A stretch of 64,000 nt of DNA from an uncultured Pelagibacteraceae bacterium. GTDB lineage: Bacteria; Pseudomonadota; Alphaproteobacteria; Pelagibacterales; Pelagibacteraceae. Position 1 is the stretch's first letter; every line of letters starts with the position of its first letter. The position numbers were made by a program, and so were the translations under genes. The DNA is taken from the NCBI GenBank assembly GCA_902592985.1, contig CACJGR010000003.1, positions 25,220 to 89,219 of the forward strand. Reading direction: 5' to 3'. Positions 9,889 to 17,556 of this stretch are shown piece by piece. The notes beneath the pieces were generated by a model that saw only the letters and a program-made list of their open reading frames with translations, searched no databases and was not told the DNA's origin.

Positions 9889-10698
9889 ATGAAAATTAAA
9901 AATAAACAAAAATTAGCTAGACAATGGTTCATGGAATTACAGAATATAATTTGTAATAGTATTGAACAATTAGAAAAAAAGTATGGATCTAATAAAAAAT
10001 TTAAAAAAAATAAATGGAAACATGGTGAGTTTAGAATAATTAAAGGTGAAGTAATTGAAAAAGGAGGTGTTGCATTTTCAAATGTAATAGGAAAATTTTC
10101 TAAAGAATTCGCAAAAAAAATCCCTGGAACTAAAAAAAATACTAATTTTTGGTCTTCAGGTGTTTCGGTAGTATTTCATCCAAAAAATCCTAAAATCCCT
10201 GCTATGCATTTTAACACTAGATTTATTTGTACACAAAAAAATTGGTTTGGTGGTGGTATGGACATAACACCTTGTCTTGTTGATAATAAAGAAAAAAAAT
10301 ATTTTCATAATGAATTAAAAAAAATATGTGATTTTCATAATAAAAAATATTACTCTAAATATAAAAAGTGGTGTGATAAATATTTTTATCTACCACATAG
10401 AAATGAATCTAGAGGTATAGGTGGTATTTTTTTTGATTATAAAATGGATAGTTGGGACAAGGATTTTTCTTTTGTTAAAGATATTGGTATTACTTTTGCT
10501 TATTTAGTTAAAAAAATTATAGAAAAAAAAATGTTTTTAAAATGGACAAAAAAAGAAAAAGAAATTCAATTATTAAAAAGAGGTAGATATGCTGAATTTA
10601 ATTTATTGTATGATCGTGGAACAAAATTTGGCTTAAACAGTGGTGGTAGCCCTGATGCAATATTAATGTCTATGCCTCCAAATGCAAAATGGAACTAA
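9889..10698 (+). CDS. hemF: Oxygen-dependent coproporphyrinogen III oxidase
   Basis: [59 protein letters not shown]. Confidence 0.95.
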
Positions 10699-11176
10699 AA
10701 TGAAAAAAGAACCAATAACTATTACTGGTCTTGAAAAATTAAAAAATGAGTTAATGTTCTTAAAAGAAAAAAAACGCCCTGAAATAGTTTCTGCAATAGC
10801 AGAAGCAAGATCTCATGGTGATTTAAAAGAAAATGCAGAGTACCATGCTGCAAAAGAACAGCAATCACACAATGAGGGAAGAATAGAAGAAATTAATGAC
10901 ATAATTGCTAGAGCAGATGTGATTGATATAACAAAGATAACTAATGAAGGAAAAGTAATTTTTGGTTCAACTGTTTATTTAATAAATTTAGACACTAGAG
11001 AAAAAATTAATTACAAAATTGTTGGAAAAGATGAAGCAGATTTAAAAAAAAAACTTATATATTTTCAGTCACCTATTGGTAAAGGACTAATCGGAAAAAT
11101 GAAAAATGATTTAATCGAAATATCTACTCCAGCGGGTACAAAAAACTTCGAAATTAAAGACGTACAATATATTTAA
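10682..11176 (+). CDS. greA: Transcription elongation factor GreA
   Basis: [23 protein letters not shown]-terminal [10 protein letters not shown] domain. Confidence 0.95.
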
Positions 11177-12447
11177 TTTTTTATTATTTTTTGAACTTCT
11201 AATTTCGAGATATTAAAATTATTTTTTACCCACTTCTCTTCTATTTCCTTTAACTTGGTTCCGAGCTTTTTTCCTTCAGGAATATTATATTCTGTCATTA
11301 AAGTAATGGCTCTAAGAGGAAATAGTGGCGGTTCTTTATCTTTATAAAATTCTATCATTTTTATAAGCTTTTTATCAATTTTTTTTAACCTAAAAATTTG
11401 AAAATAAAGTAAATCTAATAATGATTGTTTTCCATTAAAATATAAAACTTTATCTAGATTTTTCTTAGAAAAAGCTTTTCTATTATTTTTTGATGAAAAA
11501 AAATTATTTAAAAATAAAATTCTTTTTTCATTTTTTTTAGAAAGATTAAATTTATATATAAAATAATTAACATTGTCTGTACCATCAATAATCAATAGAG
11601 ATATTAAAAAAATAAAATCTAAATTGTTAATATTTTCTTTAGCAAAATTATTTAGCTTTTCAAAAATATTAATATTTCTAAATTGAGGAAAGATTAATTT
11701 AATAGTTTCATAACAAAATATATCTTTAGTTAATTTAGAAAAACCATGTGAATAAACTAATTTTTTAAATTCTTCCAATAATCTGTCTGATGAAATTTTA
11801 TTCAATCCATCTAAATTTTGTTTTATAATTTTAGTGATATTTGGATTATGTTTTTGTTTACTATAATTAAGGAAAAATCTTATATATCTTAAAATTCTAA
11901 GATAATCTTCTTTAATTCTTTTGTCTTCTGAACCAATAAATTTTATTTCACCATTTTTTAAGTCTTTTTTACCATTAAAGGGATCAAATAAATTTCCATC
12001 AATATCTGCATAAATTGAATTTATTGTAAAATCTCTTCTTGATGCATCTTCATGCCAATCATTCGAAAATTCAACTTTTGCATGTCTTCCATCAGTTGAA
12101 ATATCTTTTCTTAAAGATGTAACCTCAAATTTTTTGTTATTAATCAAAGCTGTAATTGTTCCATAATCAATTCCTGTTTTATAAAATTTAATATTATTTT
12201 TCTTTAGAATTTCTGATACCTCATCTGGATTTAAATTTACGGCAAGATCAATGTCGTCGACTATTTCATTATTAATAATTTTTCTAACACATCCACCTAC
12301 ATATCTTATTTCACTAGTTTTTGAGAATTCTTCTATAGCTTTAAATATTTTATTTACCTCAGTTTCTTTTCTAAGTTTTTGAAAAGCTAAATTTAATGAA
12401 TTAAAATTTTTTGATTGCGAAAAAATTTTATTTAATAAAGTTATCAT
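11173..12447 (-). CDS. cca: CCA tRNA nucleotidyltransferase/poly(A) polymerase-type nucleotidyltransferase
   Basis: [64 protein letters not shown]. Confidence 0.92.
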
Positions 12448-12450
12448 ATA

Positions 12451-12524
12451 TGGCTGGGGCGCTAGGATTCGAACCTAGGATGGCGGTACCAAAAACCGCT
12501 GCCTTACCGCTTGGCTACGCCCCA
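12451..12524 (-). tRNA. tRNA-Gln (anticodon TTG), CCA encoded
   Basis: Reverse complement TGGGGCGTAGCCAAGCGGTAAGGCAGCGGTTTTTGGTACCGCCATCCTAGGTTCGAATCCTAGCGCCCCAGCCA; acceptor TGGGGCG/CGCCCCA, anticodon loop TTTTGGT, T-loop GGTTCGAATCC. Confidence 0.96.
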
Positions 12525-12556
12525 AAATTAATTTCGTATATCACAAAAAAAAAAAT

Positions 12557-13405
12557 TTATATAGTTTTTGATGTAATACACCAATAGTTATTAAATTTCT
12601 TCCTAAATTCTTTTCTTGCAATTTCTGCAGCTTTTTTAGAATAAAAATAAGCCAAAATTGAGGATCCTGATCCAGACATTCTTACAAATATTACATTTGA
12701 TAATTTCAATAAAAACAATTTTAGTTCCATCAATTTTGGATATTTTTTAAAGACAATTTTTTCTAATACATTGCTTGAATTAATAATATTTTTCTTTCTA
12801 AAAAATGATTGCTTTGAATTATTGTATTTGGCTTTAGAATAATTTCTTACCTTTGAATAAATTAATTTTGTAGAACAGCCAAAATTGGGTTTCACAATTA
12901 ATACATGAAAGCAAAGCTTTTTGTTTAATTTAATCAATTTGCTACTAGAAGATAAAATTGAATTTTTTGGATTTATTCCTAGTATAACATCAGAACCTAT
13001 TAAATTAGCCAGATTTATTAATCTTTTTTTGTTCAATTTAATGATTTTTTTATTATAAAAATAATTAATTAAAGAAGCAGCATTCATAGATCCCCCTCCC
13101 ATTCCAGATTGTTGAGGAATATTTTTTTCAATCTTAATTTCAAACTTTTGATTATTAAGAAGTTTCTTTTTGTCAAGTGTTTGCAAAAGTTTAGAAACTG
13201 TATTTTTGCTATTTATTCCTTTTGCAAATTTTCCTGTAAAATAAACTTTGTGTCTGTATGAATTTATTGGTCGCAAATATATTAAATCATATAAATTTAC
13301 AAAAGTTATTAAACTTTCAATATTATGTTTTTTTGATCTTAATTTTCCTAATATATTTAATGAAAGATTGACCTTGGCATAAGATTTAATTTTTAGAAAT
13401 TTCAT
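12557..13405 (-). CDS. ispE: 4-diphosphocytidyl-2-C-methyl-D-erythritol kinase
   Basis: SYAKVNLSLNILGK, KNIPQQSGMGGGSMNAAS, RMSGSGSSILAYF. Confidence 0.93.
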   Translation of the reverse strand: MKFLKIKSYAKVNLSLNILGKLRSKKHNIESLITFVNLYDLIYLRPINSYRHKVYFTGKFAKGINSKNTVSKLLQTLDKKKLLNNQKFEIKIEKNIPQQSGMGGGSMNAASLINYFYNKKIIKLNKKRLINLANLIGSDVILGINPKNSILSSSSKLIKLNKKLCFHVLIVKPNFGCSTKLIYSKVRNYSKAKYNNSKQSFFRKKNIINSSNVLEKIVFKKYPKLMELKLFLLKLSNVIFVRMSGSGSSILAYFYSKKAAEIARKEFRKKFNNYWCITSKTI

Positions 13406-16393: not shown

Positions 16394-16444
16394 TTACTAT
16401 AAAAATTTATAACACAAATTGAAACCTTTTAATTCAATCTCAGG

Positions 16445-16480
16445 TTGACCATAGAATCCATTTGGAGTCTAATTAGATTT
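16445..16480 (+). promoter_or_regulatory. Putative ccrM promoter containing two GANTC sites
   Basis: TTGACC at 16445, GAATC at 16454-16458 and GAGTC at 16465-16469, AT-rich -10-like segment (TCTAAT/TAGATT) just before the ATG at 16486. Confidence 0.45.
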
Positions 16481-16485
16481 TACAA

Positions 16486-17556
16486 ATGGAAGATAATTTC
16501 AAAAATAAAATTATCAATGGCGATAGCATTAAGGAGTTAAAAAAAATTCCTAACGAAACCTTTGATTTAATTTTTGCAGATCCTCCTTACAATCTTCAAT
16601 TAAAAAATAAATTAACTAGGCCAGATAGATCCAAAGTTAATGCTGTAGATGATAAATGGGATCAATTTAAAAGTTTTAAAAAATATGATGAATTTACTTC
16701 GAAATGGTTAAAGGAATGTAGAAGAATTTTAAAAAAAAATGGTACTCTTTGGGTAATTGGAAGTTATCACAATATTTTTAGATTAGGTACTGCTATACAA
16801 GATTTTGGATTTTGGATTTTAAATGATGTTATTTGGAACAAAAATAATCCCATGCCAAATTTTAGAGGTACAAGATTTACCAATGCACATGAAACATTGA
16901 TTTGGGCATCTAAAGAACAAAAATCAAAATATACTTTTAACTACCAGTCTCTAAAATGTTTAAATGACGATCTTCAAATGAGATCCAATTGGAACCTGCC
17001 AATATGTAACGGAACAGAAAGATTAAAAAAAAATGGTAAAAAAGTTCATTCTACTCAAAAACCAGAGGCATTGTTGCATAGAGTATTGCTAGCTTCTTCC
17101 AATAGAGGTGATATGATTTTAGATCCTTTTCTTGGATCAGGAACTACAGCTACAGTAGCAAAAAAACTAAGAAGAAATTATTACGGTATTGAGAAAGAAA
17201 TAAAATATTTCAGGGCTGCAGAAGAAAGATTAAAAAAAACAAAACCGATTGAAGATGACTTCTTAGATACATTAAAAAATAATAGATCTAAACCAAGAAT
17301 ACCTTTTGGATCTTTAGTTGAACTTGGAATTATAAACCCAGGTACAAATATTTTTGATCAAAAAAAGAAAATAAATGCAAAAATAATGGCTGATGGCAGC
17401 ATTAAACACAGCAAAGTAGAAGGTTCAATCCACAAAGTTGCAGCAACAATTTTGGGGACAGAAAGCTGTAATGGATGGACATACTGGTATTATAATATGA
17501 ATGGATCGATGGTGCCTATAGATAATTTGAGGCAAAGATTAATCTCTAGTAATTAA
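16486..17556 (+). CDS. ccrM: Adenine-specific DNA methyltransferase, CcrM-like (predicted GANTC)
   Basis: [13 protein letters not shown] catalytic motif, [20 protein letters not shown] motif, CcrM-type C-terminal extension ([29 protein letters not shown]). Confidence 0.92.

Follow-up and report, generated by a model that had tools for sequence, protein, structure and literature searches.

Does a tRNA gene that ends a few nucleotides before the gene for the tRNA-end enzyme mark a private control loop between the two, or is the junction a product of genome shrinkage? The question is raised by a 64,000-nt stretch of DNA from an uncultured SAR11 (Pelagibacteraceae) bacterium (hereafter the window), in which a tRNA-Gln gene directly precedes cca. 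SAR11 bacteria, a model for genome streamlining, rank among the most numerous cells on the planet. The features at this locus are as follows.

10682–11176, plus strand: greA, convergent with cca and overlapping the cca end by 4 nt
11173–12447, minus strand: cca, class II CCA-adding enzyme/tRNA nucleotidyltransferase, 424 aa, ATG start (PF01743, NCBIfam)
12448–12450, minus strand: spacer TAT, 3 nt, between the tRNA CCA end and the cca start codon
12451–12524, minus strand: tRNA-Gln(TTG) gene, CCA encoded at 12453–12451 (ARAGORN, Rfam, sequence)
12535–12543, minus strand: extended -10-like element TGA-TATACG, within the 32 nt upstream of the tRNA; putative function only
12557–13405, minus strand: ispE, the upstream neighbour, 32 nt from the tRNA; its linkage to tRNA-Gln is common to the sister family

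Read on the minus strand, the junction is ...GCGCCCCAGCCA-TAT-ATG, with the CCA encoded and a 3-nt gap to the ATG at 12447. ARAGORN finds tRNA-Gln(ttg) as the sole tRNA in the window, in agreement with a 63-bit match to Rfam RF00005, and these predictions together with the sequence itself confirm the layout that an earlier note on this DNA had described, a tRNA-Gln with encoded CCA ending 3 nt before the cca ATG. Elsewhere in the window, a bablM RNA (RF01784, 77 bits; 16421–16489, plus strand) lies directly upstream of an adenine-type DNA methyltransferase ORF at 16486, CcrM-like by eye, with which it overlaps by 4 nt.

The cca product matches PF01743 (PolyA_pol head domain; E 6.6e-30, 104.5 bits against a cut-off of 23), a profile that places it among the class II CCA-adding enzymes; its best NCBIfam model is NF009814, 'CCA tRNA nucleotidyltransferase' (E 2e-50, below the curated cut-off). 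Because it is the lone PF01743 protein in the genomes searched (one per genome in 5/5), it is presumed to be CCA-adding rather than a poly(A) polymerase. Searches of 150 genomes retrieved a cca match in 124, and 79 distinct loci of the genus were analyzed, among which identity in the first 180 residues falls as low as 47%. The cca frame offers no start earlier than the ATG at 12447, and the window is one of 58 among the 79 distinct loci that have no further ATG, GTG or TTG ahead of the catalytic VGG motif. A search for an alternative start within the ORF gave no conserved candidate among these loci, and conservation of the encoded N-terminus begins at this same ATG, which upholds the earlier view that this is the true start. 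In two draft assemblies (L023 of G076, and G002:C1:37017-38283) the cca frame is interrupted by stops, possibly through assembly error.

Having analyzed the junction in the window, we turned to its conservation. ispE, tRNA-Gln and cca are adjacent in 79/79 distinct loci, far beyond chance, and the tRNA 3' end always lies 3–5 nt before the same-strand ATG (3 nt in 72 loci, 4 nt in five and 5 nt in two), so the adjacency and the spacing of 0–5 nt, which the earlier note put up for checking in relatives, both held. The junction appears to have arisen within the Pelagibacter line. In the sister family, TPR, ispE and tRNA-Gln are adjacent in all 12 genomes, from three genera, whose contig reaches far enough, and tRNA-Gln is separated from cca by ~3.6 kb holding five to seven genes, the last two being DUF1285 and then NUDIX in 12/12 (domains identified in one of the 12). 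In two alphaproteobacteria from other orders, too, cca directly follows a NUDIX gene. DUF1285 was detected in 3/3 sister-family genomes searched and in 0/7 of those from Pelagibacter, of which two are single contigs of at least 99% completeness. Taken together, the sister-family order, the NUDIX-cca pair elsewhere and the lack of DUF1285 in Pelagibacter suggest, as the simplest account, that a deletion probably joined tRNA-Gln to cca. The ancestor would have carried ispE-tRNA-Gln upstream of a block ending in DUF1285-NUDIX-cca, and loss of that block during streamlining would have left cca directly behind the tRNA. The difference in synteny is plain from the comparison; that the block was lost here rather than inserted elsewhere is what we infer from it.

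The cca junction is one of several. In the complete relative G012, 7/32 tRNAs sit 3–9 nt before a same-strand ATG, and across the genus seven tRNAs other than tRNA-Gln lie 3–13 nt (tRNA-Gly up to 22 nt) before the starts of mostly unrelated genes. Besides cca, the genes found behind tRNAs are hisS, tig (trigger factor), NDUFS4, NAD kinase, an acyl-CoA ligase, a GIY-YIG gene and a pterin dehydratase, and the junction of tRNA-Leu(TAA) with NAD kinase occurs in the window's own genome. Every clear start at these junctions is ATG and none has a gap below 3 nt; the single TTG start listed, at a gap of 1 nt, has an in-frame ATG at a gap of 4 nt. tRNA-Pro stands 3–8 nt before NDUFS4 in 27/30 loci (L192–L221), and in a small number of genomes another gene takes its place, a sign that gene exchange is tolerated at this junction. 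The gene for the synthetase of tRNA-His, hisS, starts 3–7 nt behind that tRNA in 12/12 distinct genus loci read (L139 at G000:C1:30720-30649, minus strand; L182–L191; L125; L155). Outside the genus, one sister-family genome held few such junctions, all of 9 nt or longer, and the one normal-sized alphaproteobacterial genome analyzed gave no convincing tRNA-to-start junction. As the arrangement is not confined to cca or to genes of tRNA metabolism, it points to a general mode of gene packing and not to a cca-specific switch, and genome shrinkage looks a likelier origin for the junction than a control loop of its own.

How, then, might a gene placed in this way be expressed? Correctly placed Shine–Dalgarno (SD) cores precede only 31/204 clear starts in the complete relative, against 14/204 control positions, while the anti-SD is intact although the SD is rarely used. 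The argument in the earlier note that the SD region of cca lies buried in the tRNA thus carries little weight. The cca start is ATG in 79/79 loci and the 74–75 nt ahead of the spacer belong to the tRNA, leaving no SD available. There is likewise no room for a promoter between tRNA-Gln and cca, and the promoter scan listed none there; nor was a terminator-like site found. Upstream of the tRNA, TG-N(1-2)-TATA recurs at nearly the same place in 54/60 distinct upstream sequences and is missing from six. This -10-like element, ~16 nt upstream of tRNA-Gln, was not listed by the generic promoter scan, and by its resemblance to the consensus it could start transcription ~4 nt before the tRNA. We searched also for processing enzymes. 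RNase E/G was present in 5/5 genomes, while the RNase Z model scored 41–48 bits against a cut-off of 293 in Pelagibacter genomes (G012:C1:604318-604740 and equivalents), and a bona fide RNase Z thus seems to be absent from them.

In the proposed scheme, cca and tRNA-Gln would share a transcript that begins at a promoter close ahead of the tRNA and/or comes through from ispE; RNase P would free the tRNA 5' end, RNase E and 3' exonucleases would free its 3' end, and the cca mRNA would then begin 0–3 nt from its AUG and be translated as a near-leaderless message. Bacterial leaderless translation needs an AUG and a 5' phosphate (PMC4611024), both of which the product of tRNA processing would have. 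The earlier suggestion that processing would leave a nearly leaderless cca mRNA is supported; the leader would be 0–3 nt long. Base-pairing or attenuation between tRNA-Gln and the cca start was considered and rejected, none being seen in the predicted minimum-energy fold, where the spacer and start region behind the tRNA is mostly unpaired, and the tRNA body having been swapped in one genome (G062, below). The best explanation, and in our judgement a reasonably probable one, is that streamlining has made a tRNA-to-mRNA junction at which excision of the tRNA, a step we infer, yields a near-leaderless cca mRNA, as one instance of a general packing mode. Cleavage could instead fall inside cca, or the unprocessed precursor could be translated.

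The strongest competitor does without selection, whether for coupling or for leaderless translation: deletion bias would have driven the gap to a 3-nt floor, from which only insertions are left. Tight packing is normal in this lineage, the median intergenic length in 'Ca. P. ubique' being 3 nt (PMC2704228), no tRNA family has a clear junction below 3 nt, and most junctions other than that at cca exceed this floor, with drifting lengths. The cca spacer is at this minimum and unusually constant. Under similar sampling one change was counted for it (29 tips), compared with 11 for tRNA-Pro-NDUFS4 (27 tips), 11 for tRNA-Leu-tig (30 tips) and four for tRNA-His-hisS (12 tips). As only insertions are possible at an apparent 3-nt floor, part of this constancy may be neutral; the few changes could also reflect a cca-specific constraint that our best explanation does not fully cover. 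Neutral packing by itself leaves unexplained what sets the floor, and also why the base before the cca ATG is T in 79/79 distinct loci when T holds that position at 32% of 204 clear ATG starts in the complete relative. We consider it unlikely.

Over the 79 tips of the cca tree there were three changes of the gap and none at position -1, as against 12 at -2 and 19 at -3. NDUFS4 and tig likewise have a constant or almost constant T at -1; hisS has A, not T. The ordinary junction at ispE shows four changes of -1 in 17 tips. The invariant T stays beside the ATG as the gap grows to 4–13 nt at cca, tig and NDUFS4, and since it tracks the start codon and not the tRNA end, a role in initiation is more likely for it than one in cleavage. 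The RNase E +2 uridine rule, RN-cut-WUU (PMC5222698), was considered as the cause of this T, and the 3-nt cca spacer is compatible with A-N-cut-W-U; it was rejected because the T remains at the ATG when the gap lengthens. A candidate cause linked to the start codon, for example U(-1) with A37 of the initiator tRNA, in which A37 is present, fits better.

A tie between tRNA maturation and cca translation, put forward in the earlier note as a special device, found no specific support. It would have the state of tRNA 3'-end maturation, through Cca or exonuclease activity, set the amount of translatable cca mRNA as a feedback on tRNA repair. That the downstream gene encodes the very enzyme that acts on tRNA ends speaks for it, as do the near-constant spacer and the unchanging T beside two changing bases; against it stand the mostly unrelated genes that share the arrangement and the fact that the T follows the start codon. 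Since the CCA is encoded here, first-pass maturation can moreover proceed without Cca activity; with CCA encoded in 31/32 tRNA genes of G012, the enzyme would be mainly for repair. A further point comes from genome G062, where tRNA-Gln (L005/L167; G062:C2:149875-149948, minus strand) is only ~72% identical to the copies of its relatives. It is the only tRNA-Gln found in that genome, its flanks are normal and its 3-nt gap is unchanged, as if a foreign tRNA-Gln had taken the place of the original one; phage and plasmid collections gave no match to it. A very different tRNA at the same spacing argues against a sequence-specific pairing of tRNA and cca, and, as far as sequence comparison goes, what is constrained at the cca junction is spacing and start context, not tRNA sequence. 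We regard such feedback as improbable, and place no higher the bolder combination in which SAR11 has a mitochondria-like set of leaderless mRNAs made by tRNA punctuation and, in addition, the 3-nt spacing at cca is held by coupling of tRNA-Gln maturation to Cca synthesis. Least probable of all is a reading in which non-SD 30S initiation at cca takes place on the tRNA-mRNA before any processing, tRNA cleavage coming afterwards or being dispensable: most genes in the genus lack an SD and the AUG region is predicted to be mostly open in the precursor, but a folded acceptor stem would begin ~8 nt before the AUG, inside the usual 30S footprint.

The preferred reading, tRNA excision at a junction made by streamlining, has partial precedents. 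In the E. coli tRNA-tufB operon, a protein gene downstream of a tRNA shares its transcript and is separated from it by RNA processing. SAR11 cca is likewise a protein gene behind a tRNA, on a transcript proposed to be shared; unlike tufB, which keeps a leader between tRNA and gene, it has a gap of 3 nt with no room for one. The predicted cca message would also resemble the leaderless mRNAs of mycobacteria and Propionibacterium in having its start codon a few nucleotides from the 5' end, but there the 5' end is the transcription start (PMC3848588; PMC4633059), whereas that of cca would come from tRNA processing. No report of a tRNA-fronted near-leaderless arrangement was found in the literature searched, which comprised open-licence papers only. 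The closest likeness is to animal mitochondria, in which tRNAs abut start codons and their excision leaves mRNAs with a leader of 0–3 nt at the AUG, a pattern reportedly described by Montoya and Ojala in 1981. In SAR11, too, the tRNA directly abuts the start codon and a leader of 0–3 nt is expected upon excision; the differences are that only ~7/32 tRNAs precede genes in this way, that the genome is bacterial and that the processing is putative. The cca junction, with its near-fixed 3-nt spacer, is the tightest example and the sharpest test site. If several SAR11 genes are indeed expressed by cutting a tRNA off the message, streamlining would have a route by which tRNAs become gene leaders, and mitochondrial tRNA punctuation would have a bacterial parallel, within the Alphaproteobacteria, the class usually regarded as related to mitochondria.
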